The position numbers and the translations under genes were made by a program. This document shows positions 16,940 to 60,824 of a DNA stretch of 64,000 nucleotides, piece by piece (the first letter of the stretch is position 1; each line of letters begins with the position of its first letter). Source of the stretch: Mycoplasmatota bacterium (lineage in GTDB: Bacteria; Bacillota_I; Bacilli_A; MAG-NZ); the NCBI GenBank assembly GCA_018394315.1, contig CP074575.1, positions 2,031,501-2,095,500 of the forward strand, in the 5' to 3' direction. Under the pieces are notes generated by a model that was not told where the DNA came from, did no database searches, and was given only the letters and a program-made list of their open reading frames with translations.

Positions 16940-17095
16940 TCATTGCCTTAAAATTATAGCACACGTATATTTCTAATGCAAGAGAAATTTCAACATTTTT
17001 TTAATAGATAAATCAGCGTCATTATTTGGCTCATTTATGAACAATTTAGAGTGAATACCCAAGTTAATAAAACTATAGTTTAGAGATAGAAAAGT

Positions 17096-17125
17096 AAAAA
17101 GGACTTTAGATCAAAAGTCCTTTTT
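17096..17125 (-). terminator. terminator after the giant surface protein gene
   Basis: AAAAAGGACTTT / AAAGTCCTTTTT, a 12-bp stem with a 6-nt loop and a T-run on the minus strand. It lies about 45 nt past the stop of the giant gene. Confidence 0.85.
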
Positions 17126-17167
17126 ATGGTTTACCCTGCGCAAAATCCATTGATTTTGATTCTATTT

Positions 17168-20100
17168 TTAAAACTTACGCTTTTCTTTTATTCTTATTAC
17201 AAATAATTCAATAACTAATACTACTAAAACAATTGGGATCGTCCAGATAATATATCTCTTGAAGTCTATCTTTGAATTATCCTCAAACGGAGTAACATCT
17301 ACGATAATTTCACCATCACTATTAATAACAACGAAATCATCTTTACTCTCCTCTACAATGCCCCCACTCTCAATCTTATAAACTAGTTCCGTTGTAAACT
17401 CATAGTCTTTGCCATCAGGAACTATTACATAGTCAACAGAGAGTTCATTTATTACTAGAGTTTTCTCTTCATAAGCATTGACTGGAATAATTAATGGCAT
17501 AGATTCAGTTTCATGCTTTTCACGGTAATGAACAGTCATTTCCTTTACGTCTGGTCTATCTCTTAAATCAAATATAACTAAAACTACTTCTTCTTCCTCA
17601 TGGACTTCCTTTTGGAACTTGACAATGTCAGTTTTAAGTACTTTATTTTCCTCGATAGCTCTATCTCTTTCTATCTCTTCTTTTAGAATATCATCATTAG
17701 AAACAATAGTAACTTCTTCTTCTTGGACGTTGATTAAGTCTTCTAAGAAATCATCACATGGAAGTTCTTCTGAAGTAAATATCCCATATTCTTGTGTTGA
17801 ATTAATCAGCATTACATGTACATACATATCTGGAGAATCAATTGATAGATATAGCTCTTTATCAAATTCGGACCAATTAGAGTTAAAATGATCTGCAAAC
17901 TTGCTATTTGAGATTGAATATTTCATTACGGTACTTTGATCATTCAGTAGCCCAGATTCAATTTCTAATTCAATCGGATCAAAATCTTCAACATAGATCA
18001 TAATCGTTCTATTAGGTGACTCAATTACATTAATAATTCTCTCAGCAGTTGCCGTATTACCTGATGAATCCGAGATTGTATAAGTTAAAACGTGTCTACC
18101 TACGTTCTTTGTATCAGCTGTCTCAGATATCCTTAAACTTTCATACAAGAATAGGTCATCGTAGTTATCACTTAATACATAACCAGGTTCATTATAAATA
18201 GAATTCACATAGAGATCAATTTCCGTACTTCCTAGAAGTGTAATTTCAGGAGAAGTAGAATCTACCACTTCTATAGTTCTAGTTGCTTCAACTTTTCCAA
18301 ATACACCTGCATAAGAATACACTAATTCATAAAATCCTATTTTGTTAGTATTTACTGAACCAATAATGTCTACTTGACTTGTTAGAATGGTACTTCCATA
18401 GCTTGCGGTATAACCAATTTCCTCATAGTTATTACCAACTTCAACCATTACTACAGATTCTCCAAGTAAATCCAGCTCCAGTTTCTTTTTAGAGCTTGAT
18501 GAACTACTTGATGATCCTGATTCTTCAACTGGTGGGTTCTCAGGAACTGATTCAACAATGAAGTTAGCTTTCAAAGTTACATCATGACTACTCATTAAGA
18601 AGTCACTTAAGTCTTGCAGATAAGTACTTCTTCCAGAGTCATAACTCCATCCAGAGAATATATATCCGGGTTTTTCTACAAGTGGAATTAATCCTGAATC
18701 TACATATGTGTTATAGACAACTAATCCGCTACTAATGAATGCATCATCATAATCAATAAATGTTAGCGTAAGTTCCATAATTTCATATTCTGCAGTCAAA
18801 GTAACATCATAATTTGGCATTATAAAGTCGCTTAGGTCAGGTAAATATGTTAGTCCACTATTTATCCATCCAGTTAAGCTGTACCCGACTCTCGTAGGAT
18901 TCTCAGGTGTTGGTGTAGTATTATAAGCTACTAAACCGCTACTTACAAACGTATCATCAAAGTCATTATATGTTAGTGTATTTGTATTAGCTGTATACAC
19001 TGCTACCATATCCACATCTGTTGTTGCCATTGTATAGTCATTCAAATCAGTTGCGTATACTGTTGTTCCACCATCAGGTGTCCATCCTGTATGAGTATAA
19101 CCAGCGATACTTGCTGATGCAGGTGGTGTTAATGTTGTTCCTAATGTATCTGTATCTACTAAACCTGATGAAATAAAAGTCGTTCCATCTTGTTCATAAT
19201 GAGTTAGTGTATTTGTATTAGCTGTATATACTGCTACCATATCTACATCTGTTGTAGCCATTGTATAGTCATTCAAGTTAACCGCATATACAGTAGTTCC
19301 ACCATCAGGTGTCCATCCTGTATGAGTATAACCTGCGATACTTGTTGGTACAGGTGGTGTTAACGTTGTTCCTAATGTATCCGTATCTACTAAACTTGAT
19401 GAAACAGAAGTTGTTCCATCTTGTTCATAATAAGTTAGTGTATTTGTATTAGCTGTATACACTGCTACCATATCTACATCTGTTGTAGCCATTGTATAGT
19501 CATTTAAGTTAACCGCATATACAGTAGTCCCACCATCAGGTGTCCATCCTGTTTGTGTATAACCTGCGATACTTGCTGGTACAGGTGGTGTTAACGTTGT
19601 TCCTAATGTGTCCGTATCTACTAAACTTGATGAAACAAAAGTTGTTCCATCTTGTTCATAATAAGTTAGTGTATTTGTATTAGCTGTATACACTGCTACC
19701 ATATCTACATCTGTTGTAGCCATTGTATAATCATTTAAATCAGTTAAATATACAGTAGTCCCACCATCCGGTGTCCATCCTGTATGTGTATAACCTGCGA
19801 TTGAAGCGGGTACAGGTGGTGTTAATGTTGTTCCTAAAGTATCTGTATCTACTGAACTAGATGAAATAAAAGTTGTTCCATCTTGTTCATAATAAGTTAG
19901 TGTATTTGTATTAACTGTATACACTGCTACCATATCCACATCTGTTGTAGCCATTGTATAATCATTTAAGTTAACCGCATATACAGTAGTCCCACCATCA
20001 GGTGTCCATCCTGTTTGTGTATAACCTGCGATACTTGCTGGTACAGGTGGTGTTAACGTTGTTCCTAAAGTATCTGTATCTACTAAACCTGATGAAATAA

Positions 20101-23100
20101 AAGTTGTTCCATCTTGTTCATAATAAGTTAGTGTATTTGTATTAGCTGTATACACTGCTACCATATCTACATCTGTTGTAGCCATTGTATAGTCATTTAA
20201 GTTAACCGCATATACAGTTGTTCCACCATCAGGTGTCCATCCTGTATGTGTATAACCTGCTATTGAAGCTGGTGCAGGTGGTGTTAACGTTGTTCCTAAT
20301 GTATCTGTATCTACTGAACTAGATGAAATAAAAGTTGTTCCATCTTGTTCATAATAAGTTAATGTATATGTATTAGCTGTATATACCGCTACCATATCTA
20401 CATCTGTTGTAGCCATTGTATAGTCATTTAAGTTAACCGCATATACAGTAGTCCCACCATCCGGTGTCCATCCTGTATGTGTATAACCTGCGATTGAAGC
20501 GGGTGCAGGTGGTGTTAACGTTGTTCCTAATGTATCTGTATCAACTAAACCTGATGAAACAAAAGTCGTTCCATCTTGTTCATAATAAGTTAATGTATTT
20601 GTATTTGCTGTATATATCGCAGTTAAGTTTACATTATTTGGTGCCATTGTATAGTCATTCAAATCAGTAGAATATACAGTTGATCCACCATCAGGTGTCC
20701 ATCCTGTATGTGTATAACCTGCTATTGAAGCTGGTGCAGGTGGTGTTAACGTTGTTCCTAATGTATCCGTATCTACTAAACCTGATGAAACGAATGTTAT
20801 TCCGTCTTGTTCATAATAAGTTAAAGTGTACGTATTAGCTGTATATACCGCAGTTAAGTTTACATTATTTGGTGGCATCACAAAATCATTAAGATCAGAT
20901 GCGTAAACTGTAGTTCCTCCATCTGGTGTCCATCCCGTATGTGTGTAACCGGTAATAATTGCAGGAGTTGCTGGTATTAAACTACTTCCTAATATGTCTG
21001 TTGCGACTGATTTACTTGATATTATTGTTGTTCCATCTTGTTCATAGTAAGTTAATGTATATGTATTTGCTGTATATATCGCAGTTAAGTTTACATTATT
21101 TGGTGCCATTGTATAATCATTAAGATCAGATGCGTAAACTGTAGTCCCACCATCCGGTGTCCATCCTGTATGTGTATAACCTGCGATTGAAGCGGGTGCA
21201 GGTGGTGTTAACGTTGTTCCTAATGTATCTGTATCAACTAAACCTGATGAAACAAAAGTCGTTCCATCTTGTTCATAGTAAGTTAATGTATTTGTATTTG
21301 CTGTATATATCGCAGTTAAGTTTACATTATTTGGTGCCATTGTATAGTCATTCAAATCAGTTGAATATACAGTAGTTCCACCATCCGGTGTCCACCCTGT
21401 ATGTGTGTAACCTGCTATTGAAGCTGGTGCAGGTGGTGTTAATGTTGTTCCTAAAGTATCTGTATCTACTAAACCTGATGAAACGAATGTTGTTCCATCT
21501 TGTTCATAATAACTTAAAGTGTACGTATTAGCTGTATATACCGCAGTTAAGTTTACATTGTTTGGTGCCATAGTAAAACCATTAAGATCAGATGCGTAAA
21601 CAGTAGTTCCTCCATCTGGTGTCCATCCTGTATGAGTATAACCTGTAATAATTGCAGGAGTTGCAGGTATTAAACTACTTCCTAATGTGTCTGTTGCGAC
21701 TGATTTACTTGATATTATTGTTGTTCCATCTTCTTCATAATAAGTTAATGTATTTGCATTCGCTGTATACACTGCTACCATATCTACATCTGTTGTAGCC
21801 ATTGTATAGTCATTTAAGTTAACCGCATATACAGTTGTTCCACCATCAGGTGTCCATCCTGTATGTGTATAACCTGCTATTGAAGCTGGAACAGGTGGTG
21901 TTAATGTTGTTCCTAATGTATCTGTAACTACTAAACCTGATGAAACGAATGTTGTTCCATCTTGTTCATAGTAAGTTAATGTATATGTATTTGCTGTATA
22001 TATCGCAGTTAAGTTTACATTATTTGGTGCCATTGTATAGTCATTCAAATCAGTAGAATATACAGTTGATCCACCATCAGGTGTCCATCCTGTATGAGTA
22101 TATCCTGCAATTGAAGCTGGTACAGGTGGTGCTAATGTTGTTCCTAATGTATCTGTATCTACTAAACTTGATGAAACGAAGGTTATTCCGTCTTGTTCAT
22201 AATAACTTAAAGTGTACGTATTAGCTGTATATACCGCAGTTAAGTTTACATTATTTGGTGCCATAGTAAAATCACTAAGATCAGATGCGTAAACTGTAGT
22301 TCCTCCATCTGGTGTCCATCCTGTATGTGTGTAACCTGTAATAATTGCAGGAGTTGCAGGTATTAAACTACTTCCTGATGTGTCTGTTGCGACTAAGCTA
22401 AATGAGAATGCTGTTATTCCGTCTTGCTGATAGTAAGTTAATGTATATGTATTAGCTGTATATACCGCTACCATATCTACATCTGTTGTAGCCATTGTAT
22501 AATCATTCAAATCAGTTGAATATACAGTAGTCCCACCATCCGGTGTCCATCCTGTATGTGTATAACCTGCGATTGAAGCGGGTGCAGGTGGTGTTAACGT
22601 TGTTCCTAATGTATCTGTATCAACTAAACCTGATGAAATAAAAGTCGTTCCATCTTGTTCATAATAAGTTAATGTATTTGTATTTGCTGTATATATCGAA
22701 GTTAAGTTTACATTATTTGGTGCCATTGTATAATCATTCAAATCAGTAGAATATACAGTTGATCCACCATCAGGTGTCCATCCTGTATGTGTATAACCCG
22801 CTATTGAAGCGGGTGCAGGTGGTGTTAATGTTGTTCCTGCTGTATCTGTATCTACTAAACCTGATGAAACGAAGGTTATTCCGTCTTGTTCATAATAAGT
22901 TAAAGTGTACGTATTAGCTGTATATACCGCAGTTAAGTTTACATTATTTGGTGCCATAGTAAAATCATTAAGATCAGATGCGTAAACTGTAGTTCCTCCA
23001 TCTGGTGTCCATCCCGTATGTGTGTAACCGGTAATAATTGCAGGAGTTGCAGGTATTAAACTACTTCCTGATGTGTCTGTTGCGACTAAGCTAAATGAGA

Positions 23101-26100
23101 ATGCTGTTATTCCATCTTGCTGATAGTAAGTCAATGTATATGTATTTGCTGTATATACCGCTACCATATCCACATCTGTTGTAGCCATTGTGTAATCATT
23201 TAAGTTAACCGCATATACAGTAGACCCACCATCAGGTGTCCATCCTGTATGTGTATAACCTGCTATTGAAGCTGGTACAGGTGGTGTTAATGCTGTTCCT
23301 AATGTATCTGTATCTACTAAACCTGATGAAACAAAAGTCGTTCCATCTTGTTCATAGTAAGTTAATGTATTTGTATTTGCTGTATACACTGCTACCATAT
23401 CTACATCTGTTGTAGCCATTGTATAATCATTCAAATCAGTTGCGTATACAGTACTTCCACCATCAGGTGTCCATCCTGTATGTGTATAACCTGCTATTGA
23501 AGCTGGAACAGGTGGTGTTAATGTTGTTCCTAATGTATCTGTATCTACTAAACCTGATGAAACGAATGTTGTTCCATCTTGTTCATAATAACTTAATGTG
23601 TACGTATTAGCTGTATATACCGCAGTTAAGTTTACATTATTTGGTGCCATAGTAAAATCATTAAGATCAGATGCATAAACTGTAGTTCCTCCATCTGGTG
23701 TCCATCCTGTATGAGTATATCCTGCAATACTTGCTGGTGCAGGTGGTGTTAATGTTGTTCCTAATGTATCTGTTGCGACTAAGCTAAATGAGAATGCTGT
23801 TATTCCGTCTTGCTGATAGTAAGTTAATGTATATGTATTAGCTGTATACACTGCTACCATATCCACATCTGTTGTTGCCATTGTATAATCATTCAAATCA
23901 GTTGCGTATACTGTTGTTCCACCATCAGGTGTCCATCCTGTATGTGTATAACCTGCTATTGAAGCTGGTGCAGGTGGTGTTAACGTTGTTCCTAATGTAT
24001 CCGTATCTACTAAACTTGATGAAACAAAAGTTGTTCCATCTTGTTCATAGTAAGTTAATGTATTTGTATTAGCTGTATACACTGCTACCATATCTACATC
24101 TGTTGTAGCCATTGTATAGTCATTCAAGTTAACCGCATATACAGTAGTCCCACCATCAGGTGTCCACCCTGTATGTGTATAACCAGCGATTAAAGCTGGT
24201 ACAGGTGGTGTTAATGTTGTTCCTAAAGTATCTGTATCTACTAAACCTGATGAAATAAAAGTTGTTCCATCTTGTTCATAGTAAGTTAATGTATTTGTAT
24301 TAGCTGTATACACTGCTACCATATCTACATCTGTTGTAGCCATTGTATAGTCATTCAAGTTAACCGCATATACAGTAGTCCCACCATCAGGTGTCCACCC
24401 TGTATGTGTATAACCAGCGATTAAAGCTGGTACAGGTGGTGTTAATGTTGTTCCTAAAGTATCTGTATCTACTGGAATAGATGAAATAAAAGTTGTTCCA
24501 TCTTGTTCATAGTAAGTTAATGTATTTGTATTAGCTGTATACACTGCTACCATATCCACATCTGTTGTTGCCATTGTATAGTCATTCAAATCAGTTGCGT
24601 ATACTGTTGTTCCACCATCAGGTGTCCATCCTGTATGTGTATAACCTGCTATTGAAGCTGGTGCAGGTGGTGTTAACGTTGTTCCTAAAGTATCTGTATC
24701 TACTGGAATAGATGAAATAAAAGTTGTTCCATCTTGTTCATAATAAGTTAGTGTATTTGTATTAGCTGTATACACTGCTACCATATCTACATCTGTTGTA
24801 GCCATTGTATAGTCATTTAAGTTAACCGCATATACAGTAGTCCCACCATCAGGTGTCCATCCTGTATGAGTATAACCAGCGATTAAAGCTGGTACAGGTG
24901 GTGTTAATGTTGTTCCTAATGTATCCGTATCAACTAAACCTGATGAAACAAAAGTTGTTCCATCTTGTTCATAGTAAGTTAATGTATTTGTATTAGCTGT
25001 ATACACTGCTACCATATCCACATCTGTTGTAGCCATTGTATAATCATTTAAGTTAACCGCATATACAGTTGTTCCACCATCAGGTGTCCATCCCGTATGT
25101 GTATAACCTGCTATTGAAGCTGGTACAGGTGGTGTTAACGTTGTTCCTAATGTGTCCGTATCTACTAAACTTGATGAAACAAAAGTTGTTCCATCTTGTT
25201 CATAATAAGTTAGTGTATTTGTATTCGCTGTATATACTGCTACCATATCTACATCTGTTGTAGCCATTGTATAGTCATTCAAATCAGTTGCGTATACTGT
25301 TGTTCCACCATCAGGTGTCCATCCTGTATGAGTATAACCAGCGATACTTGCTGATGCAGGTGGTGTTAATGTTGTTCCTAATGTATCTGTATCTACTAAA
25401 CCTGATGAAATAAAAGTTGTTCCATCTTGTTCATAATAAGTTAATGTATATGTATTTGCTGTATATATCGCAGTTAAGTTTACATTATTTGGTGCCATTG
25501 TATAGTCATTTAAGTTAACCGCATATACAGTTGTTCCACCATCAGGTGTCCATCCTGTATGTGTATAACCTGCTATTGAAGCTGGTACAGGTGGTGTTAA
25601 TGCTGTTCCTAATGTATCTGTATCTACTAAACCTGATGAAACGAATGTTGTTCCATCTTGTTCATAGTAAGTTAATGTATTTGTATTTGCTGTATACACT
25701 GCTACCATATCTACATCTGTTGTAGCCATTGTATAATCATTCAAATCAGTTGCGTATACAGTACTTCCACCATCAGGTCTCCATCCTGTATGTGTATAAC
25801 CTGCTATTGAAGCTGGTGCAGGTGGTGTTAACGTTGTTCCTAATGTATCCGTATCAACTAAACCTGATGAAACGAATGTTGTTCCATCTTGTTCATAATA
25901 AGTTAATGTATTTGTATTAGCTGTATACACTGCTACCATATCTACATCTGTTGTAGCCATTGTATAGTCATTCAAGTTAACCGCATATACAGTAGTTCCA
26001 CCATCAGGTGTCCATCCTGTATGTGTATAACCTGCTATTGAAGCTGGTGCAGGTGGTGTTAATGTTGTTCCTAATGTATCCGTATCAACTAAACCTGATG

Positions 26101-29100
26101 AAACGAATGTTGTTCCATCTTGTTCATAATAAGTTAATGTATTTGTATTAGCTGTATACACTGCTACCATATCTACATCTGTTGTTGCCATTGTATAGTC
26201 ATTCAAATCAGTTGCGTATACTGTTGTTCCACCATCAGGTGTCCATCCTGTATGAGTATAACCAGCGATACTTGCTGATGCAGGTGGTGTTAATGTTGTT
26301 CCTAATGTATCTGTATCTACTAAACCTGATGAAATAAAAGTCGTTCCATCTTGTTCATAATGAGTTAGTGTATTTGTATTAGCTGTATATACTGCTACCA
26401 TATCTACATCTGTTGTAGCCATTGTATAGTCATTCAAGTTAACCGCATATACAGTAGTTCCACCATCAGGTGTCCATCCTGTATGTGTATAACCTGCTAT
26501 TGAAGCTGGTGCAGGTGGTGTTAACGTTGTTCCTAATGTATCCGTATCTACTAAACCTGATGAAACGAATGTTGTTCCATCTTGTTCATAATAAGTTAAT
26601 GTATTTGTATTAGCTGTATACACTGCTACCATATCTACATCTGTTGTAGCCATTGTATAATCATTTAAGTTAACCGCATATACAGTTGTTCCACCATCAG
26701 GTGTCCATCCTGTATGAGTATAACCAGCGATACTTGCTGGTACAGGTGGTGTTAACGTTGTTCCTAAAGTATCCGTATCAACTAAACCTGATGAAACAAA
26801 AGTCGTTCCATCTTGTTCATAATAAGTTAATGTATTTGTATTTGCTGTATACACTGCTACCATATCTACATCTGTTGTAGCCATTGTATAGTCATTCAAG
26901 TTAACCGCATATACAGTTGTTCCGCCATCAGGTGTCCATCCTGTATGTGTATAACCTGCTATTGAAGCTGGTACAGGTGGTGTTAACGTTGTTCCTAATG
27001 TATCCGTATCAACTAGACCTGATGAAACGAATGTTGTTCCATCTTGTTCATAATAAGTTAATGTATTTGTATTTGCTGTATATACCGCAGTTAATGTAAC
27101 ATTATTTGATGGCATCACAAAATCATTCAAATCTACTGCATAACTTATTGAGCCATCTGTCCATCCTGTAAACGTGTGCCCTTCCTTTGTAGGATTGCTT
27201 GGAAGAAGACTTGGATTACTAAGAAATGTAAAACCTGGTTCAATATATTTAACACTGTTAATTACCTGATCAGATTCAGTATTGTAAGTAATATTATACC
27301 GAGTTGTCGTTCCGAACCATTCAACCTTTTCACCATAATAACTTCCGGTTATGATATCCAAATCTCCATCACTATCAATGTCGGCCGCATATACTGCCAA
27401 TGTTCCACCTGAGTTTGTTGATATCATATTTTGTTCATCTTTTGTGAAAAAACCACCTTTATTTTCATACCATGCGACTTCCTCGTCTTCGAAACTACCA
27501 CCTATTACATCCATATCTCCATCATTATCAACATCGGCTGCATGTACACTCCAAGCTCCATCTGCACCACCAATTGAGTCTATTATAATATGCTCCGTAA
27601 ATAATTGATTACTATTTTCATACCATGCAATCGTATCATCAAGATAACTCGCGCTTAATACATCCATATCTCCATCATTATCGATGTCTACTGCATAGAC
27701 TTCTTGTGCAGAATCAGCAGTATTTGTTATTATTTTCTTTGTAAAGACAAGATTATTATTTTCATACCATGCAATCGTATCATCGTTCTGACCCGCAGAC
27801 AATACATCCATATCACCATCTGAATCTATATCTGCTGCGTATACCGATCGTACTGCGATCGCTGAACTATCTATTACATTTTTTGAATTTAAAATAAAAA
27901 ATCCATTTAAATTCTCATACCAAGCGACTGTGTTATCACCCTGACTGGCGGACAATACATCCATGTCGCCATCATTATCCATATCTGCTGCATATACTGA
28001 GTATGTTTCCAATGCTGTTGATGATATTATATTTCTTGAAGAAAATTCAATATATCCTAACGTTTGATTGAATCCAAGGTTTTCGTACCACGAAATTCTG
28101 TTGTCATTCCTACCACCGCTTAATACGTCAATATCACCATCATTATCTATATCTGCTGTATAGACTGAGGTTGCTCCATCAGATAAACCAACTACATGTT
28201 CTGTTAAATTACCTGAACCATCATTTTCATACCATGAGATTGCATCATCACTACCACTCGCGCTTAATACATCAATATCTCCATCATTATCTATATCTGC
28301 CGCGTGTACATCTCGTGTTGACATACCTGATGTAGTTGTAATTTGATGTTTAGTGTAAGATCCTACTTGTACCTCAGCTTTTACTCTAAATTCTGTAACA
28401 TAAGAAAATACTGAACTGGTATCAGCTTTTTTCACTTGATCAGTCACGTATACTCTAATTACTTCTCCTGGTAAAAAATTATTAGTTGGATTTATTGTTA
28501 GAAGTTTATTAAGAGCATCATAGCTACTTGAATAAGTATATTCACTGCTATTTTCGCCTACAATCTTTAATGTTGATTCATTAATAGTGCTTGGATCTAT
28601 TGCCCATGGAAAAGTGATTGATATATCTGCATCATATAAAACACCAATTTCATTTACATCTGGTACAGTTTTATAGGTTGCTGCTCCAAACCAAGCAATC
28701 GTGTTATCAGTCTGCATTGCAGATATTATATCTATATCCCCATCTGAATCCATATCTGATGTATGGATAGATATTGCACCACCTGCAGATGTTGTAATCA
28801 CATTCTGTTCGTCCTGAGTGAAATACCCACCTTTGTTTTCATACCATGCTATCGTATTATCTAAAATACTAGCGCTTATTACATCCATATCGCCATCGGA
28901 ATCAAAATCTACAGCTCGAATGTCCCATGCACCATCAGCACCACCATCTACATCGATGATTATATTTTTTTCATCCTGAGTAAAATATCCACCTTTATTT
29001 TCATACCAAAGGATTGAATCGTCGCCTTTACTTGCACTTAGTACATCCATATCACCATCATTGTCTAAATCGGCTGCGTAGACAGATCTTGCACTAATCA

Positions 29101-31543
29101 ATCCTGTCATTATCAAGTTTGGCGATGAAAATTCAGCATAACCCAAAGTATCATTATAACCAAGGTTTTCATGCCATGCGATAGCTTGATCATCATCACT
29201 AGCACTAAGAACATCCATGTCTCCATCGTTGTCTAGATCTGCTGCATAGACATCCCAACGTCCATTTACTGCAGCTGTATCAATAATTATATGTTTCTCA
29301 TCTTTTATAAAATTTCCACCAAGATTCTCATACCAAGCGATTGTATCGTCTTCTCTACTTGCACTTAATACATCCATATCTCCATCATTATCTAAATCCG
29401 CTATATGGATTGATCGCATCCCAAGTGCTCCACCACCTATATCAGTGATTATATGCTCTGTAAATACTTGATTATTATTTTCAAACCAAATTATTGCATC
29501 GTCATATATACTAGAACTTATTACGTCCATATCTCCATCATTATCTAAATCCGCTGCATTTACAGATGTTGGACCATCTGCCCCACCGGCTACATCAGTA
29601 ATTATATGTTCTGTTAAATTTCCTACCCCATCATTTTCATACCATGCTACTGTGTCGTCATCTACACTTGCGCTCAAAACATCCATATCTCCATCGCCAT
29701 CAATATCTACTGTGTATACTGAATAAGCACTCATAGCTGATGAATTTATATTATGTTGAACTAATGGCCCTTCTAATACTTCATTCTTTACAACAAATTC
29801 AGTTGAATATGGAAATACTGAAGTAGTGTCAGCCTTTTTAACTTGATCTGTCACATATACTCTAACTATTTCACCAAATTTATAATCGTTTGTAGGATCT
29901 ATTGTAAGTTCCTTTGTAGAAGCATTATAACTACTTGAATAAGTATATTTACCACTATTTTCTCCAACTATGACTATTGTCGACTCAGTTACTGTTGCGG
30001 GATCTATCGCCCAAGGAAAGGTGATTACTATATCTGTATCGTAATCAACACCGATTTCATTTACATCTGGCGTTGTTTTATAAGTTGTTACTCCATACCA
30101 CGCAATTGTACTGTCTACTGAACTCGCACTTATTACATCTAAATCTCCATCGTCGTCCATATCTGCAGTACAGACAGACATCGCTCCATCCGCTCCACCT
30201 ACTACATCGATGATTACATTTTCTTGAAATACTTGATTATCATTTTCATACCATGCGATTTTATCATCGTAGTTACTCGCACTAATTACATCCATATCTC
30301 CATCATTATCTAAATCTGCTGCATAAACAGAAACAGCACCATCAGCAGTATTTGATATTATATTTTGTTCATCCAGTGTGAATGTTCCACCCTTGTTCTC
30401 ATACCAAGCAACTGTATCATTATTTAAACTCGCGCTTAATATATCCATATCACCATCATTATCTAAATCCGCTGCATACACTGAATAAGGTCCACTTGCT
30501 AAGGTTGTTATTACATTTTGTGCATCCTTTGTAAACGATCCACCGTTGTTTTCATACCACGCTATTGTATTGTCTAGCTCACTCGCACTTATGACATCTA
30601 AATATCCATCATTGTTAATGTCCGTTGCATAGACTGCCCTTACCCCATCTGCTCCACCAGGGATATCTATAATTATATGTTCTATAAATACTTGATTATT
30701 GTTTTCATACCAGACTATTTTATCCTCACTAAGACTCGCACTAAGAACATCCATATCTCCATCATTATCCATATCCGCTGCGTGTACTGTTCTTACTCCA
30801 GTTAAAGAACTAGTTATTACATTTTGCTCATCCTTTGTAAAAAAGCCACCTTTGTTTTCATACCAGGCGACTGTATTATCGACAGAGCTTGCACTAAGTA
30901 CATCCATATCCCCATCATTATCTATATCAGCAGAATATACTGAACGTGGGCCATCTACTCCACCAACTATATCGATAATTATATGTTCTACTACATTTCC
31001 GGAACCATCATTTTCATACCAAGATATCTTATCGCCTGAAAAACTTGCACTAACTACATCAATATCGTTATCATTATCTATATCCACAGCAAATGCTGAA
31101 TATGCTCCATCTGCAGTAGTTGATATTTCGTGTTGTATGAACGTCCCATTTACCGCTTCCGCTTTAACTCTAAACTCAGATACATATGGTATAACTGGTT
31201 CACCACCAGTTTTTTTAACTCTTTCAGTAATGAGAACTTGTATTTTTTCACCAAACTTGAAGTTGTTTACGGGATCAATAGTAAGACTCTTAGTCGGAGC
31301 ATCGTAACTCAAAGTCGTAGAATATTCTCCACTACTTTCTCCTACTATTTTGATATTAGTACTTGTTAATGTAACTTCATCAATATCATAAAGAAATGTT
31401 ACTGTAATATTTGCATTACGCTCAATTCCAATTGTATTTGATCCAGGTGTTATAACATAACCTCCTGAAGCATTCAATACTGTAATCTGAATACCTATAA
31501 CAACTGCTATAGATAATAGTAAGCCTAATATTATTTTTCTCAT
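17168..31543 (-). CDS. giant (4,791 aa) surface protein: FG-GAP propellers plus InlB-type repeat stalk
   Basis: The Sec signal peptide spans about 1-26. The N-terminal third holds three modules, each an Ig-like Big_5-type domain (about 30-127, 484-590, 956-1060) followed by seven FG-GAP/VCBS units of the form DxDNDGDMDVLSAS...IAWYEN (21 units in all). Seven units fit one seven-bladed beta-propeller with Ca2+-binding loops. Then one diverged InlB B-type repeat, 35 near-identical 77-residue units (about 1490-4186) and two more diverged units. A Ser-rich linker, two DUF5011-like Ig domains (about 4360-4515), an acidic region, a C-terminal membrane helix (about 4764-4785) and a KEKRKF tail complete it. 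There is no LPxTG motif, so anchoring is probably by the helix. The start has AAGGGG upstream. Likely an adhesin or long stalk; ligand unknown. Confidence 0.9.
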   Translation of the reverse strand: MRKIILGLLLSIAVVIGIQITVLNASGGYVITPGSNTIGIERNANITVTFLYDIDEVTLTSTNIKIVGESSGEYSTTLSYDAPTKSLTIDPVNNFKFGEKIQVLITERVKKTGGEPVIPYVSEFRVKAEAVNGTFIQHEISTTADGAYSAFAVDIDNDNDIDVVSASFSGDKISWYENDGSGNVVEHIIIDIVGGVDGPRSVYSADIDNDGDMDVLSASSVDNTVAWYENKGGFFTKDEQNVITSSLTGVRTVHAADMDNDGDMDVLSASLSEDKIVWYENNNQVFIEHIIIDIPGGADGVRAVYATDINNDGYLDVISASELDNTIAWYENNGGSFTKDAQNVITTLASGPYSVYAADLDNDGDMDILSASLNNDTVAWYENKGGTFTLDEQNIISNTADGAVSVYAADLDNDGDMDVISASNYDDKIAWYENDNQVFQENVIIDVVGGADGAMSVCTADMDDDGDLDVISASSVDSTIAWYGVTTYKTTPDVNEIGVDYDTDIVITFPWAIDPATVTESTIVIVGENSGKYTYSSSYNASTKELTIDPTNDYKFGEIVRVYVTDQVKKADTTSVFPYSTEFVVKNEVLEGPLVQHNINSSAMSAYSVYTVDIDGDGDMDVLSASVDDDTVAWYENDGVGNLTEHIITDVAGGADGPTSVNAADLDNDGDMDVISSSIYDDAIIWFENNNQVFTEHIITDIGGGALGMRSIHIADLDNDGDMDVLSASREDDTIAWYENLGGNFIKDEKHIIIDTAAVNGRWDVYAADLDNDGDMDVLSASDDDQAIAWHENLGYNDTLGYAEFSSPNLIMTGLISARSVYAADLDNDGDMDVLSASKGDDSILWYENKGGYFTQDEKNIIIDVDGGADGAWDIRAVDFDSDGDMDVISASILDNTIAWYENKGGYFTQDEQNVITTSAGGAISIHTSDMDSDGDIDIISAMQTDNTIAWFGAATYKTVPDVNEIGVLYDADISITFPWAIDPSTINESTLKIVGENSSEYTYSSSYDALNKLLTINPTNNFLPGEVIRVYVTDQVKKADTSSVFSYVTEFRVKAEVQVGSYTKHQITTTSGMSTRDVHAADIDNDGDIDVLSASGSDDAISWYENDGSGNLTEHVVGLSDGATSVYTADIDNDGDIDVLSGGRNDNRISWYENLGFNQTLGYIEFSSRNIISSTALETYSVYAADMDNDGDMDVLSASQGDNTVAWYENLNGFFILNSKNVIDSSAIAVRSVYAADIDSDGDMDVLSAGQNDDTIAWYENNNLVFTKKIITNTADSAQEVYAVDIDNDGDMDVLSASYLDDTIAWYENSNQLFTEHIIIDSIGGADGAWSVHAADVDNDGDMDVIGGSFEDEEVAWYENKGGFFTKDEQNMISTNSGGTLAVYAADIDSDGDLDIITGSYYGEKVEWFGTTTRYNITYNTESDQVINSVKYIEPGFTFLSNPSLLPSNPTKEGHTFTGWTDGSISYAVDLNDFVMPSNNVTLTAVYTANTNTLTYYEQDGTTFVSSGLVDTDTLGTTLTPPVPASIAGYTHTGWTPDGGTTVYAVNLNDYTMATTDVDMVAVYTANTNTLTYYEQDGTTFVSSGLVDTDTLGTTLTPPVPASIAGYTHTGWTPDGGTTVYAVNLNDYTMATTDVDMVAVYTANTNTLTYYEQDGTTFVSSGLVDTDTLGTTLTPPAPASIAGYTHTGWTPDGGTTVYAVNLNDYTMATTDVDMVAVYTANTNTLTHYEQDGTTFISSGLVDTDTLGTTLTPPASASIAGYTHTGWTPDGGTTVYATDLNDYTMATTDVDMVAVYTANTNTLTYYEQDGTTFVSSGLVDTDTLGTTLTPPAPASIAGYTHTGWTPDGGTTVYAVNLNDYTMATTDVDMVAVYTANTNTLTYYEQDGTTFVSSGLVDTDTLGTTLTPPAPASIAGYTHTGWRPDGGSTVYATDLNDYTMATTDVDMVAVYTANTNTLTYYEQDGTTFVSSGLVDTDTLGTALTPPVPASIAGYTHTGWTPDGGTTVYAVNLNDYTMAPNNVNLTAIYTANTYTLTYYEQDGTTFISSGLVDTDTLGTTLTPPASASIAGYTHTGWTPDGGTTVYATDLNDYTMATTDVDMVAVYTANTNTLTYYEQDGTTFVSSSLVDTDTLGTTLTPPVPASIAGYTHTGWTPDGGTTVYAVNLNDYTMATTDVDMVAVYTANTNTLTYYEQDGTTFVSSGLVDTDTLGTTLTPPVPALIAGYTHTGWTPDGGTTVYAVNLNDYTMATTDVDMVAVYTANTNTLTYYEQDGTTFISSIPVDTDTLGTTLTPPAPASIAGYTHTGWTPDGGTTVYATDLNDYTMATTDVDMVAVYTANTNTLTYYEQDGTTFISSIPVDTDTLGTTLTPPVPALIAGYTHTGWTPDGGTTVYAVNLNDYTMATTDVDMVAVYTANTNTLTYYEQDGTTFISSGLVDTDTLGTTLTPPVPALIAGYTHTGWTPDGGTTVYAVNLNDYTMATTDVDMVAVYTANTNTLTYYEQDGTTFVSSSLVDTDTLGTTLTPPAPASIAGYTHTGWTPDGGTTVYATDLNDYTMATTDVDMVAVYTANTYTLTYYQQDGITAFSFSLVATDTLGTTLTPPAPASIAGYTHTGWTPDGGTTVYASDLNDFTMAPNNVNLTAVYTANTYTLSYYEQDGTTFVSSGLVDTDTLGTTLTPPVPASIAGYTHTGWTPDGGSTVYATDLNDYTMATTDVDMVAVYTANTNTLTYYEQDGTTFVSSGLVDTDTLGTALTPPVPASIAGYTHTGWTPDGGSTVYAVNLNDYTMATTDVDMVAVYTANTYTLTYYQQDGITAFSFSLVATDTSGSSLIPATPAIITGYTHTGWTPDGGTTVYASDLNDFTMAPNNVNLTAVYTANTYTLTYYEQDGITFVSSGLVDTDTAGTTLTPPAPASIAGYTHTGWTPDGGSTVYSTDLNDYTMAPNNVNLTSIYTANTNTLTYYEQDGTTFISSGLVDTDTLGTTLTPPAPASIAGYTHTGWTPDGGTTVYSTDLNDYTMATTDVDMVAVYTANTYTLTYYQQDGITAFSFSLVATDTSGSSLIPATPAIITGYTHTGWTPDGGTTVYASDLSDFTMAPNNVNLTAVYTANTYTLSYYEQDGITFVSSSLVDTDTLGTTLAPPVPASIAGYTHTGWTPDGGSTVYSTDLNDYTMAPNNVNLTAIYTANTYTLTYYEQDGTTFVSSGLVVTDTLGTTLTPPVPASIAGYTHTGWTPDGGTTVYAVNLNDYTMATTDVDMVAVYTANANTLTYYEEDGTTIISSKSVATDTLGSSLIPATPAIITGYTHTGWTPDGGTTVYASDLNGFTMAPNNVNLTAVYTANTYTLSYYEQDGTTFVSSGLVDTDTLGTTLTPPAPASIAGYTHTGWTPDGGTTVYSTDLNDYTMAPNNVNLTAIYTANTNTLTYYEQDGTTFVSSGLVDTDTLGTTLTPPAPASIAGYTHTGWTPDGGTTVYASDLNDYTMAPNNVNLTAIYTANTYTLTYYEQDGTTIISSKSVATDILGSSLIPATPAIITGYTHTGWTPDGGTTVYASDLNDFVMPPNNVNLTAVYTANTYTLTYYEQDGITFVSSGLVDTDTLGTTLTPPAPASIAGYTHTGWTPDGGSTVYSTDLNDYTMAPNNVNLTAIYTANTNTLTYYEQDGTTFVSSGLVDTDTLGTTLTPPAPASIAGYTHTGWTPDGGTTVYAVNLNDYTMATTDVDMVAVYTANTYTLTYYEQDGTTFISSSSVDTDTLGTTLTPPAPASIAGYTHTGWTPDGGTTVYAVNLNDYTMATTDVDMVAVYTANTNTLTYYEQDGTTFISSGLVDTDTLGTTLTPPVPASIAGYTQTGWTPDGGTTVYAVNLNDYTMATTDVDMVAVYTVNTNTLTYYEQDGTTFISSSSVDTDTLGTTLTPPVPASIAGYTHTGWTPDGGTTVYLTDLNDYTMATTDVDMVAVYTANTNTLTYYEQDGTTFVSSSLVDTDTLGTTLTPPVPASIAGYTQTGWTPDGGTTVYAVNLNDYTMATTDVDMVAVYTANTNTLTYYEQDGTTSVSSSLVDTDTLGTTLTPPVPTSIAGYTHTGWTPDGGTTVYAVNLNDYTMATTDVDMVAVYTANTNTLTHYEQDGTTFISSGLVDTDTLGTTLTPPASASIAGYTHTGWTPDGGTTVYATDLNDYTMATTDVDMVAVYTANTNTLTYNDFDDTFVSSGLVAYNTTPTPENPTRVGYSLTGWINSGLTYLPDLSDFIMPNYDVTLTAEYEIMELTLTFIDYDDAFISSGLVVYNTYVDSGLIPLVEKPGYIFSGWSYDSGRSTYLQDLSDFLMSSHDVTLKANFIVESVPENPPVEESGSSSSSSSSKKKLELDLLGESVVMVEVGNNYEEIGYTASYGSTILTSQVDIIGSVNTNKIGFYELVYSYAGVFGKVEATRTIEVVDSTSPEITLLGSTEIDLYVNSIYNEPGYVLSDNYDDLFLYESLRISETADTKNVGRHVLTYTISDSSGNTATAERIINVIESPNRTIMIYVEDFDPIELEIESGLLNDQSTVMKYSISNSKFADHFNSNWSEFDKELYLSIDSPDMYVHVMLINSTQEYGIFTSEELPCDDFLEDLINVQEEEVTIVSNDDILKEEIERDRAIEENKVLKTDIVKFQKEVHEEEEVVLVIFDLRDRPDVKEMTVHYREKHETESMPLIIPVNAYEEKTLVINELSVDYVIVPDGKDYEFTTELVYKIESGGIVEESKDDFVVINSDGEIIVDVTPFEDNSKIDFKRYIIWTIPIVLVVLVIELFVIRIKEKRKF
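18984..27070 (-). repeat. 35 x 231-bp tandem coding repeat array
   Basis: Thirty-five in-frame units of 231 bp (77 codons) encode a Listeria-Bacteroides (InlB B-type) repeat. Typical segments are TLTYYEQDGTTFVSSGLVDT, SIAGYTHTGWTPDGGTTVYA and a tail of either ATTDVDMVAVYTAN or APNNVNLTAVYTAN. Units differ at a limited set of positions, both at DNA and protein level, which points to recent duplication and gene conversion. Units 18, 21, 24 and 27 share the SSLIPATPAIITGY variant, giving a 693-bp higher-order period. The array is a likely place for length variation and misassembly. Confidence 0.93.
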
Positions 31544-31957
31544 ATTGAAAACCCCTTTACTTCGTCATCTATTCTAATTATCTACTTAATCTCCACTAAC
31601 GTTATTGTTTCATTTATATATAGTAATTAGTTGTTTCCCCATTCCAATCTACCTTATTTCTTCTTAGGAAATTGCGTTATTTGTCAAAATTTGTCATTAC
31701 ATTATCTCAAAAAAAATACTGATGGTCAATATCTTTCATACTTTTAGAGTGCAATACGACATCGAAATAATTTTTCCGAAGAGAATTAAAGAAAAACTAA
31801 TTTAGAAATAGTATAGTATATAGATATTGTTATCATAGCCATAAGCTTTTACTTCTATCTAAAAATTGATGGTATTAACGATGTAATCTTATTAAGATTA
31901 TTAATATTTTTTTCAGGCAATTAATTCTTCATAACTTAGTATTCTAAAGTTAGATTC
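31544..31957. other. intergenic region upstream of the giant gene
   Basis: About 410 bp without a convincing coding frame. It is very AT-rich with only an AAGGGG ribosome binding site next to the giant gene start. I see no clear promoter pair, repeat or RNA gene. Confidence 0.5.
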
Positions 31958-31984
31958 AAAAAAAAGCAGTTACCAACTGCTTTT
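31958..31984 (-). terminator. terminator after the small lipoprotein gene
   Basis: Minus-strand AAAGCAGTT / AACTGCTTT stem with a 3-nt loop followed by T8, directly beyond the lipoprotein stop. Confidence 0.85.
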
Positions 31985-32678: not shown

Positions 32679-33962
32679 TTATTGGTCCTGTTCAAAGTAA
32701 GGTACTACTTCTCCCTTAATACCTGTATGATATTCGCTAATCAGTCTAACCAATAACCCATTTAAATACTCAACTACTGTTTCACCAACTGTAGCTTCAA
32801 GATGATCTTCACCAATTCCAGAATGGTTTGTCAAGAATACATAAGTGCCTCCTGTCATCATTGCTTCGTTTCTAAGCAAATATTCAGTATGCTTATCAAT
32901 GCCACTAGATGCTACTGGTATTAGTCTGATACCCATTGATGCAGCTTTATATATTGAACTATAATATCTGCTCATGTCCTCTTGAGTTTCATGTGGGGGT
33001 GCATCCAAAACATGGAATAAGAGTTTTGTTGTGTTTTCTTCACTCCAAGCTTTCATCATCGCTTCATCAAGAGCAATATCAACAGCTTCTTCAAAATCTC
33101 CTCCTCCTTGAGAAGATTGTGCACGCAGATTTTTCTTTTGATCTAAAATATCTGTTGTAAAATCAAAATATCTAGTCAGGTAACTATCACCAACGTCACG
33201 GTAGAATAGAAGTGCTAATTTAATCGTTAAGTTAGGATTGTCGTCTGTATGAGAAGTAATAACAGAGTCAATTTCAGTTTTTAAATACTCTAATTCATCA
33301 CTCATCGATCCAGTAGTGTCAATCACGAACATAATCTCGATAACGTCTTTGTGGGAGTCATCTTCACTTATCTCGAATGTTAGATGATTATTCTCAATAG
33401 AATATCTATACTCTTCATTTAAGATTACATCATTGTACGATATTGAAATAGAAGCGATATCTGCCAATTGATCACTCTTTGGGAAAAGGTATGCATTACC
33501 AAAAGCATCACTCTGTGCTGTATAGATTACATTTTGACTCTCATCATGTAGTTCGACAGTAGCGCCATATAGATTTTCCTCAGTATTCGAAATTTGCACA
33601 CTAATCATATTGGTTGTATCAAAATATCCCTTATTTAAAAACTTACTGAAGATACCATCTTGACTTTCTTGCGAACTCTCGAAGAGTGATAAGTAAAAAT
33701 CATAATTTGATATGTCACTCCACTCGCTTGCTGTTAGTTGTCCTGCCTGAGGTGTAACATTAATGCTTCCCTCTTCACCATCCTTACTAGTGAGAACAGC
33801 GTCATCAGTCGACGTATATTCTCCCGATACTGGAACTTCAACTATTTTTTCAACTGCAACTTCTTTTTCAACTTCTACTTCTTTTTCAACTTCTACTTCT
33901 TTAGAACAAGCTGAAAATATAAATGACATCATAATTAACATAATAAATAAAAGTCTTTTCAT
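32679..33962 (-). CDS. lipoprotein with von Willebrand factor A domain
   Basis: A 427-residue protein. KRLLFIMLIMMSFIFSAC is a type II signal peptide with lipobox FSAC (Cys19). It is followed by a charged alternating stretch of KEVEVE-type repeats ending VEVPVSGEYT, which may form a rigid stem. A small beta domain (about 110-190) resembles carboxypeptidase-regulatory folds. The VWA domain starts near 205 with MFVIDTTGSMSDE, the intact MIDAS motif DxTGSMS, so metal-dependent ligand binding is expected. The C-terminal part contains HVLDAPPHETQED and YVFLTNHSGIGEDHLEAT, familiar from VWA proteins of Bacillota. Ligand unknown; it may act with the neighbouring surface proteins. Confidence 0.85.
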   Translation of the reverse strand: MKRLLFIMLIMMSFIFSACSKEVEVEKEVEVEKEVAVEKIVEVPVSGEYTSTDDAVLTSKDGEEGSINVTPQAGQLTASEWSDISNYDFYLSLFESSQESQDGIFSKFLNKGYFDTTNMISVQISNTEENLYGATVELHDESQNVIYTAQSDAFGNAYLFPKSDQLADIASISISYNDVILNEEYRYSIENNHLTFEISEDDSHKDVIEIMFVIDTTGSMSDELEYLKTEIDSVITSHTDDNPNLTIKLALLFYRDVGDSYLTRYFDFTTDILDQKKNLRAQSSQGGGDFEEAVDIALDEAMMKAWSEENTTKLLFHVLDAPPHETQEDMSRYYSSIYKAASMGIRLIPVASSGIDKHTEYLLRNEAMMTGGTYVFLTNHSGIGEDHLEATVGETVVEYLNGLLVRLISEYHTGIKGEVVPYFEQDQ

Positions 33963-52491: not shown

Positions 52492-52507
52492 GTAAATGCA
52501 AAAAAAT

Positions 52508-52603
52508 ACTCATTAAGAGTTGCAGAGGAAGCTAGCCGAGGAAGCAACAGCAACCTATTAAATTAGGTGCTACTAGTAGGGGTAATATTACCTATCAATG
52601 AGA
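52508..52603 (+). ncRNA. SAM-I (S-box) riboswitch for metK
   Basis: P1 is CTCATT (52509-52514) with AATGAG (52597-52602). Conserved S-box blocks follow in order: AAGAG, GAGGAA, GCC, GAAGC, GCAACC and AGGTGCTA. GAGAAAAG (52600-52607) can instead pair with CTTTTCTC (52613-52620), an antiterminator that excludes both P1 and the terminator stem. SAM binding should stabilise P1, release the terminator and cut metK expression. Confidence 0.88.
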
Positions 52604-52610
52604 AAAGGAC

Positions 52611-57605: not shown

Positions 57606-57620
57606 AGAGTTATCTTTTTA
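57594..57620. terminator. terminator overlapping the azoreductase stop
   Basis: AAGATAACT (57594-57602) pairs with AGTTATCTT (57608-57616), loop TGAAG holding the TGA stop, followed by T-rich sequence. Can also serve the convergent repeat-protein gene. Confidence 0.88.
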
Positions 57621-60600
57621 ATTAAATAAACCCTTTAACCATAAAACAAGCTTATTGAACATAGATAATTCTAAGCTTGATGTTAAAGGTACATCGCTAA
57701 ACAAGTTATTAACAAGTGATTTATTTTCGTATTGGAAGTCAAATGAATATTCTTTACCATCCTTCATAAAAACAATCTTTTGTAAATCTACATTTTGTTC
57801 CTTTATTATGATTTCAATCCAATTCGGTGAAAAATCAAAGATTGTCTTCTTATCATAAGTAATATCAATGTTATCAGCTGAATAGAAACTATCATTCACA
57901 TAGATATAATCTAACTCATAATCAAAATCTCCCGTGAATCTAATCTTAACTTTGGTCTTATCATCCATTGAGACAATAGTATACTTCTTTAGTTGAGGCA
58001 AATCAAACTTAAGTTTTTCATAATCTTCTATGATTTCAAATACTGGTTTAACAATCAAGTCACTATTGATACTGGATAAGTCTTTATCCCATCCAAAAAT
58101 CTTATAACCAGCTCTTTCAATTATTGGAGGATTAATTAAGTTAGAAGATGTAACAGTATCTGTTCTAATAACTTTATTATTGATGTCTAAAAATTTGACT
58201 GTATAACTATGTGAATCAAATATTGCATAAATGCTTAAGTCACTTGTTATATCTACTAAAGATTCACTCCATCCTAAAAAATTATGTCCCTCTTTACTAA
58301 CATTAGGAGCAATAATAGTCTCACCATGATTAACTACTTTTTCACTGATTATAGTGTCATCCAAATAAAATGAAACATGATAACACATTCTTTCATATAT
58401 GGGATTCACAACCAAATTTGAGGAAATGTCAGTAAGTGATTGATCCCAACCTATAAAGTTATAACCTATAACTACGGGAGCATCGTATTGAATATCACTT
58501 GATTCAGTAACTTGAAAACGTTCAAGTAGATTTCCATGTATATCAAAGAAAAGAACATTATAGATGATATCATCGTTAATTTCTTCATCTATTACTATAT
58601 CAACTACAACTTCATCAACTACAACTTCAGAATCATCTTCTGATGGTTCATCGTTACTATTAGTAGGATCACTTATTTTTTTATAAACAGCATAAATTTG
58701 TCGATCCTCTAGCACTTCTAAATAATCACCATCCCACTTAACAAATTCATAACCATTAACTGTAGGTGGTATAGGTGGGATAGCATCACCATTATCATTC
58801 ACAATAAATTCATCTATAATTTTTCCTTCAAACCCATAAAAAATAACTGTATGTATTTTCTCATCGAATTGAGCAATAATTGTCACATCGGACGTAATGT
58901 TATCGTAAGTATCACTCCAAGAAGTAAAACTTGCATCCTCTTTTCTTGCTATTGGTGGAGAGGCACTTTCTCCATAATAAACCTCTTCAACTTTTAATAT
59001 CTTAAAATCATAGTTCATAAAGGTGACAGTATATTTATTTTTCTCATAAACTGCATGAACATCTGTATCATTTACAATATTTTGATAGTTACTACTCCAA
59101 TTCAAAAAGATATAACCTTCAACATTTATCGTTTCTGGTAATAAAGCATCCTTATTGTAATCAACAGTCACCGTTGATACAAGTTCCTCAAAGCAGTAAA
59201 AATTGACACTAAACTCTTTTATCTCATATGTTGCGATTACTGTTATGTCAGAAACAACATTACTTATGTCACCACTCCACCCTATAAAATCATACCCTTC
59301 ACGGATAGGATCATCAATCACTAATTCATCGCCATAAGAGACTATATAGCTATCAATTGTAGTTCCATTATAATCCCTCAAATATACATTATATTCATTT
59401 ATTTCATATAATGCATGAATACTTCTATTAGAGTCTATATTTTCATAATCCTCCTCCCAACAAACAAAATGGTATCCTTCAACTATAGGAGGCGTTGGTG
59501 GATTACCACTGTATCCATAATTTATTTCTTCGGAAAGAATAATTCCATCATACCCATAGTAATCAACTGTAAAAGTATTTATACTGTATTCAGCAATTAA
59601 AGTAATATCACTTGAAATATTATTATATTCCCCACTCCACCCTATAAACGAATAGCCTTCTCTAGAAGCAACAGGTGGATTCGCATTAAATCCATGTTCA
59701 ACACTATCGGTTTTAATAGTACTCCCATCGTAGTCTTTGAATGTAACTTGGTATTTATTAATTTCATAGATTGCGTGAATATTTTTATTCCTATAGATAG
59801 AACTATATTCTGAGTCCCACCCAATAAAATGATAACCAGTAATAAGAGGTGCTTCTGGTGGCGTACAACTATACCCATATAAAACATACTCAGTCTTTAT
59901 GAGCTCATTTTCCACAAAGAAATTGACAGTATACTTATTCACAATATACTCAGCTATCAATGTCCTACTTGAATTAATATCTAAATAGCTTCCGCTCCAT
60001 CCAGTAAATGTATAACCTATCCGAGAAGCACTTGGTGGAGAAGCATCATCTCCATAATCAACTTTAACACTTTTTAAAGTAGATCCATCATAATCCTTAA
60101 AGGTAACTGTATATTCTCTAGCCTCATATCTAGCATAAATATCTAAATTTGATATTACATTAGTATAACTCTTGTCCCACCCTATGAATTTTTTACCTGT
60201 AACAACAGGGACTGCTGGAGGAGTTGCATCATAATCGTGATTGACAATCTCACTCTTTATTAAATCATTATAGTAGTCATAAAAATTAACCGTATATGTT
60301 ATCCTTTCGTATTCAGCAAATAAAGTTCTATCAGAATCTATATTGGTAAAATTATTACTCCATCCAATAAAATCATATCCTATTCTGGAAACGCTTGGAG
60401 GATTAGCATTTTCTCCGTGTACCACTGTTTCAGTTTTTAATGTTCTTCCATCATAATCTTTAAAAACTACATTATAATCTCTAACTTCAAACTTAGCATA
60501 AACGTTAAGATTTGAAGTTATATTACTATAGCTTCTATCCCATCCCGTAAATTGATATCCCACTCTACTTGGATTAGTAGGTGTTATAGCTGAATCTCCG

Positions 60601-60824
60601 TCTCTTACATAATCTTGATCATGCAAAACAACACCATTATAAAATTTTACAGTATGGTAAATAAAATGCTCAGAGTAATTATTTGGATTTTGTAAACACA
60701 ATTGATATTGATTTATCCCTAAAGTAGGTAATACAAAGTACTCACAATCACTTACATCGTATGCTCTTGTGGCTTCTTTTGGAATGATAATTAATAAAAT
60801 AATGATTAACAAAACTCTTTTCAT
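57618..60824 (-). CDS. secreted protein with 14 InlB-type repeats
   Basis: A 1,068-residue protein. KRVLLIIILLIIIPKEATRA is a Sec signal peptide. After about 55 unique residues come 14 Listeria-Bacteroides (InlB B-type) repeats of about 68 residues, each ending in a GWxxxYxNI ... YEx block: 11 in a first array, an acidic linker (SNDEPSEDDSE; VVVDEVVVD), then three more. Units 2-11 alternate between a FKDYDGSTLK subtype and an NFY-type subtype. The last 140 residues are unique and beta-rich, and end without a membrane helix or LPxTG. Function unknown; probably an exported adhesive or stalk protein, of the same repeat class as the giant protein at 17-31 kb. Confidence 0.88.
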   Translation of the reverse strand: MKRVLLIIILLIIIPKEATRAYDVSDCEYFVLPTLGINQYQLCLQNPNNYSEHFIYHTVKFYNGVVLHDQDYVRDGDSAITPTNPSRVGYQFTGWDRSYSNITSNLNVYAKFEVRDYNVVFKDYDGRTLKTETVVHGENANPPSVSRIGYDFIGWSNNFTNIDSDRTLFAEYERITYTVNFYDYYNDLIKSEIVNHDYDATPPAVPVVTGKKFIGWDKSYTNVISNLDIYARYEAREYTVTFKDYDGSTLKSVKVDYGDDASPPSASRIGYTFTGWSGSYLDINSSRTLIAEYIVNKYTVNFFVENELIKTEYVLYGYSCTPPEAPLITGYHFIGWDSEYSSIYRNKNIHAIYEINKYQVTFKDYDGSTIKTDSVEHGFNANPPVASREGYSFIGWSGEYNNISSDITLIAEYSINTFTVDYYGYDGIILSEEINYGYSGNPPTPPIVEGYHFVCWEEDYENIDSNRSIHALYEINEYNVYLRDYNGTTIDSYIVSYGDELVIDDPIREGYDFIGWSGDISNVVSDITVIATYEIKEFSVNFYCFEELVSTVTVDYNKDALLPETINVEGYIFLNWSSNYQNIVNDTDVHAVYEKNKYTVTFMNYDFKILKVEEVYYGESASPPIARKEDASFTSWSDTYDNITSDVTIIAQFDEKIHTVIFYGFEGKIIDEFIVNDNGDAIPPIPPTVNGYEFVKWDGDYLEVLEDRQIYAVYKKISDPTNSNDEPSEDDSEVVVDEVVVDIVIDEEINDDIIYNVLFFDIHGNLLERFQVTESSDIQYDAPVVIGYNFIGWDQSLTDISSNLVVNPIYERMCYHVSFYLDDTIISEKVVNHGETIIAPNVSKEGHNFLGWSESLVDITSDLSIYAIFDSHSYTVKFLDINNKVIRTDTVTSSNLINPPIIERAGYKIFGWDKDLSSINSDLIVKPVFEIIEDYEKLKFDLPQLKKYTIVSMDDKTKVKIRFTGDFDYELDYIYVNDSFYSADNIDITYDKKTIFDFSPNWIEIIIKEQNVDLQKIVFMKDGKEYSFDFQYENKSLVNNLFSDVPLTSSLELSMFNKLVLWLKGLFN

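Follow-up and report, generated by a model that had tools for sequence, protein, structure and literature searches.

A 4,791-residue surface protein of a Mycoplasmatota bacterium probably represents a fibrillar-adhesin-like protein with a horizontally acquired propeller head

Fibrillar adhesins are the described systems that most closely resemble the protein analyzed here. Flg_new has been termed a stalk domain in this context (PMC9210967), and nearly half of the fibrillar adhesins have no known anchor (PMC8286594). FG-GAP goes unmentioned in the text of PMC9210967, as do propellers in PMC8286594. Sortase loss in Mycoplasmatales relatives has been argued to reduce surface proteins and adhesion (PMC10868615). 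Our literature search found nothing on FG-GAP joined with the InlB B-repeat, on the FG-GAP repeat in Tenericutes or on the InlB repeat structure. In the present study, we analyzed a window of 64,000 nucleotides from a Mycoplasmatota bacterium whose genome is a single contig of 2.17 Mb. We propose that a giant protein encoded in this window is probably a fibrillar-adhesin-like, membrane-anchored protein that carries a propeller head, itself probably acquired horizontally, on a repeat stalk.

The giant gene is a single uninterrupted frame of 4,791 codons that starts with ATG on the minus strand (Table 1), and the plus strand across the same interval contains many stops. The original prediction of one uninterrupted gene holds, and its coordinates were correct, although it did not state the minus strand. 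Promoter-like matches in the region around the candidate promoter are no more numerous than in shuffles. Elsewhere in the window, a SAM riboswitch (52507-52604) lies directly upstream of the S-adenosylmethionine synthetase gene.

Table 1. Features of the giant gene and its flanks, in window coordinates
Feature	Position	Strand	Evidence
Candidate promoter TTGACC-17-GATAAT, TG before second hexamer	31701..31729	-	Consensus match alone
Terminator between giant gene and upstream neighbour	31962..31984	-	
Ribosome-binding site AAAGGGG, 8 nt before ATG	31552..31558	-	Sequence
Single gene, 4,791-aa surface protein	17168..31543	-	
Signal peptide, residues 1-26	31466..31543	-	By eye
Big_5 Ig-like domain 1, residues 27-142	31118..31465	-	Big_5 5.4e-9
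FG-GAP propeller 1, 7 blades	30080..31117	-	FG-GAP profile and blade motif
Big_5 Ig-like domain 2	29741..30082	-	Big_5 1.1e-9
FG-GAP propeller 2, 7 blades	28673..29740	-	FG-GAP profile and blade motif; AF2 model
Big_5 Ig-like domain 3	28334..28675	-	Big_5 2.4e-8
FG-GAP propeller 3, 7 blades	27308..28333	-	FG-GAP profile and blade motif
Divergent first InlB/Flg_new repeat	27077..27307	-	Pfam and repeat pattern
35 tandem InlB-type repeats, 77 aa each (231-bp unit)	18992..27076	-	Repeat pattern
Two divergent InlB-type repeats	18545..18991	-	Pfam and repeat pattern
Ser/Lys-rich linker	18473..18544	-	
Two PF16403 Ig-like domains	18020..18472	-	Pfam
C-terminal region, no Pfam match	17264..18019	-	Recurs in ten proteins, two genera of family
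Transmembrane helix and short basic tail RIKEKRKF	17171..17263	-	Sequence; predicted helix core pLDDT 84-90
Intrinsic terminator downstream of giant gene	17095..17126	-	

From the N- to the C-terminus, the giant protein consists of a signal peptide, three modules that each combine a Big_5 Ig domain with seven FG-GAP blades, and 1+35+2 InlB/Flg_new repeats. The stalk is followed by two PF16403 Ig domains, a region of ~250 residues without a Pfam match and one transmembrane helix. The domain search proposed in the original prediction recovered FG-GAP (FG-GAP_3, 2.7e-141), Big_5, Flg_new/InlB (Flg_new_2, 1e-101; Flg_new, 5.7e-41) and PF16403 (5.1e-20) matches. Together with the signal peptide read by eye and the C-terminal transmembrane helix, these matches bear out every original domain assignment, from the signal peptide, Ig/FG-GAP modules, InlB-type repeats and Ig-like domains to the putative membrane anchor.

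The head contains 21 blades (3 × 7), as expected from the three seven-unit propellers originally described, and each propeller domain matches the FG-GAP/VCBS profile and has seven blades. The blade at residue 308 deviates from the search motif, yet is a blade. An Asp-rich loop pattern of the DxDxDG type occurs in 20 of the 21 blades; such loops are expected to hold calcium, and the propellers are predicted to bind it. At the sequence level, module two is 54% identical to module one and 60% identical to module three. AlphaFold2 modelled one Ig and propeller module, that of propeller 2, with a mean pLDDT of 77 and a pTM of 0.70. What kind of propeller is it? Foldseek returns many kinds, including PVL-type (fungal) lectins, integrin alpha, CRTAC1 and KICSTOR, and integrin alpha stands among them at ~10-12% identity. 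Among solved structures, phmmer with the head sequence finds no match, and a profile of the three head modules matches CRTAC1 only. The earlier suggestion that a head for ligand binding sits on a long stalk is the best-supported reading, although the likeness of the head to integrins holds at the fold level only.

The head could serve nutrition rather than attachment, as a surface receptor whose propellers hold polysaccharide or protein for degradation. Sugar lectins are on the Foldseek list too, as is an auxiliary nutrient-binding protein of Bacteroides, and a Big_5-propeller protein from another phylum (L016) bears a laminin-G-like domain as well. However, terminators on both sides leave the giant gene uncoupled from any catalytic or transport gene, and uptake does not need so long a stalk; we regard nutrient capture as improbable. 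An integrin-like pair is a far more remote prospect. Two genes upstream of the giant gene, a VWA lipoprotein gene (32679-33962) encodes a DTTGS metal-site motif, and a partnership between its VWA domain and the propellers would accord with the integrin alpha match of the head fold. However, VWA relatives with 55-65% identity occur in three genomes (G006, G020 and G031), none of which has an FG-GAP_3 match, indicating that the VWA protein is independent of the propeller protein. Because a terminator also separates the giant gene from its upstream neighbour, the VWA lipoprotein is not a likely partner. We rejected it as such, and no integrin-type pairing was found with this neighbour, the one gene examined in this respect.

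The stalk comprises 38 InlB-type repeats, of which the central 35 are each exactly 77 residues long. The InlB B-repeat profile (PF09479/PF18998) scores above its gathering threshold, and this count, together with the Flg_new_2 match, bears out the predicted 38 repeats and their 35-unit stalk. The repeats provide the tandem stalk domains of a fibrillar adhesin. Structures of internalin B (2y5p, E 0.0073) are the only solved ones that were found to be related in sequence to the stalk repeat. At the DNA level, all 35 regular units are distinct, with a mean identity of 85%, a mean dS of 0.53 and a dN/dS of ~0.19, values that indicate repeats that are old and evolve under purifying selection. The identity between units three positions apart (0.894) exceeds that in all 2,000 shuffles, whose mean is 0.847, and points to earlier duplications of three units at a time. 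Conversion across the array is suggested by units 4 and 35, which are 99.6% identical.

Could so long an array be an assembly artefact? The longest exact internal repeat of the gene, which measures 311 nt, would favour this origin. However, only 466 of the 14,227 150-mers are non-unique, all 35 units differ, their mean dS is 0.53 and the frame is unbroken over 14.4 kb. The old, selected look of the units makes an origin in assembly unlikely; we rejected it on the divergence between repeats and consider it extremely improbable. The length and repetitiveness of the stalk would also suit a structural or spacer protein that gives mechanical cover or shielding and whose head has no specific ligand, and surface masking by long repeat proteins has been discussed (PMC8201768). 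However, three conserved seven-blade propellers are kept intact at the tip, which suggests a selected binding function, and we hold the spacer reading to be unlikely, slightly more so than nutrient capture.

Related repeats and domains occur in other proteins of the same genome. The window contains a second Flg_new-repeat protein (57618-60824) of 1,068 residues with a signal peptide and no evident terminal membrane helix. In a 1,036-residue protein (L122:2921-6031), seven Flg_new repeats are nearly identical and occur together with PF16403 domains and a terminal helix. A lipoprotein-like protein of 1,606 residues (L144:1130-5947) combines FG-GAP_2, another FG-GAP type, with PF16403 domains.

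The ~250-residue C-terminal region is found in ten proteins from two genera of the host's family, namely the giant protein, a 568-residue paralogue and eight proteins of the genome G002. Elsewhere among 296 genomes, no convincing match was found, and the best of the few short, weak ones scores 5e-5. An AF2 model of the region alone is poor (pLDDT 39). One of the G002 proteins, a giant of 3,073 residues (L138:3396-12614), lacks the end of the shared region and is possibly a truncated copy. The export and anchor features read from the sequence are the signal peptide, identified by eye, and one membrane helix. No sortase match (PF04203) was found in the four genomes of the family (G000-G003), and the giant protein is not classed as sortase-anchored. 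G000 has three matches to penicillin-binding transpeptidases, so a cell wall is possible in this genome. The family thus has no detectable sortase, yet encodes several giant surface-type proteins that share one conserved, unnamed C-terminal region, which makes the region a testable candidate for a missing anchor type. We tentatively suggest, as an idea somewhat less probable than not, that the region could be a domain of a new kind for surface anchoring or display, on which interchangeable giant heads and stalks are mounted in a sortase-less family, the propeller head having come from another phylum.

The stalk is ordinary for the class, given that Flg_new_2 matches occur in 172 of 296 class genomes, and other long Flg_new_2 frames reach 4,403 residues among the matches listed. 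One locus (L147) is part of an open frame of 7,266 residues in G052 that consists largely of Ig-like repeats. The propeller head is rare in the class: of 395 genomes, 13 have an FG-GAP_3 match and five, including that of the giant protein, encode strong multi-blade proteins. Among the other four of these five, G262 combines a propeller with a helix, without InlB repeats. The search for similar architectures that the original prediction called for found propellers, InlB repeats and a membrane helix together in smaller proteins of three other class genomes (G042, G138 and G221). The combination is therefore not unique, and the claim that it resembles no described system is not sustained, since the giant protein also fits the published concept of fibrillar adhesins (PMC8286594, PMC9210967). 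In G042 (L118:6244-7629), and partly in G138, the propeller is seemingly nested in an InlB repeat, between the first strand and the rest.

Where did the head come from? We compared it with 80 loci obtained by a pattern search, which may favour some groups. Among the matches listed, the top-scoring loci belong to Bacteroidota and other phyla, mostly at 44-53% identity, compared with 27-39% for class members, and the Big_5 domains of the head match loci outside the class only. Alternating Big_5-propeller arrays are present in Cryomorphaceae and Ignavibacteriae. These matches of the Big_5-propeller cassette to Bacteroidota, Ignavibacteria and others suggest that the head was likely gained horizontally. 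The genomes sampled from within this genus and family have no propeller head, which for the genus is weak evidence because the one sampled is only 55% complete. Plasmid matches to the head are partial and below 60% identity. A phage origin was rejected, with no match in 50,697 phage records.

The reading as a fibrillar-adhesin-like protein is favoured by a domain order that runs from signal peptide to putative membrane anchor and by the purifying selection on the stalk repeats. Against it counts the use of FG-GAP propellers elsewhere as scaffolds or as parts of enzymes. As an adhesin, the giant protein would be exported by its signal peptide, and its C-terminal helix, not a sortase, would hold it in the cell membrane. 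The C-terminal region and the two Ig domains would probably form a base that crosses the envelope, and the 38 repeats, judging from their fold family and repetition, would make up a long rod, with the N-terminal head held beyond the envelope at its tip. Binding is presumed to lie with the three Big_5-propeller modules of the head; three copies would permit multivalent attachment, for which the most likely targets are glycans or proteins carried by particles, polymers or other cells. The head probably entered the lineage horizontally and then joined a stalk and an anchor already used there; it is likely to be a case in which another phylum supplied a binding head.

Compared with known systems, the giant protein shares with fibrillar adhesins (PMC8286594, PMC9210967) a presumed adhesive N-terminus, tandem stalk domains and a putative C-terminal anchor, but this anchor would consist of a membrane helix and an unnamed C-terminal region, with no sortase. 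Its stalk belongs to the InlB B-repeat family of Listeria internalin B, as the 2y5p match indicates, whereas it has no leucine-rich repeats by Pfam, has 38 repeats and differs in head and anchor. Periscope proteins (PMC8201768) similarly bear an N-terminal head on tandem, highly similar folded repeats. This likeness is one of anatomy; the giant's repeats are 85% identical and old, so rapid length change of its stalk is not indicated. The Big_5-FG-GAP arrays of Bacteroidota and Ignavibacteria (L010 and L016) also alternate Ig and propeller modules, but they have no InlB repeats, and L016 ends in a Por_Secre_tail sorting domain. The proteins of G042, G138 and G221 share an initial signal peptide, one or more propellers, InlB repeats and a membrane helix with the giant protein. 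However, they are only ~460-1,120 residues per frame, that of G042 being broken by a stretch of Ns in the assembled sequence, and have one or two propellers, few repeats, no Big_5 and no shared C-terminal region. The giant protein most likely belongs to a known general type of adhesin, for which it is unusually large, with a head that is uncommon and an anchor region that has no name and is confined to its lineage.
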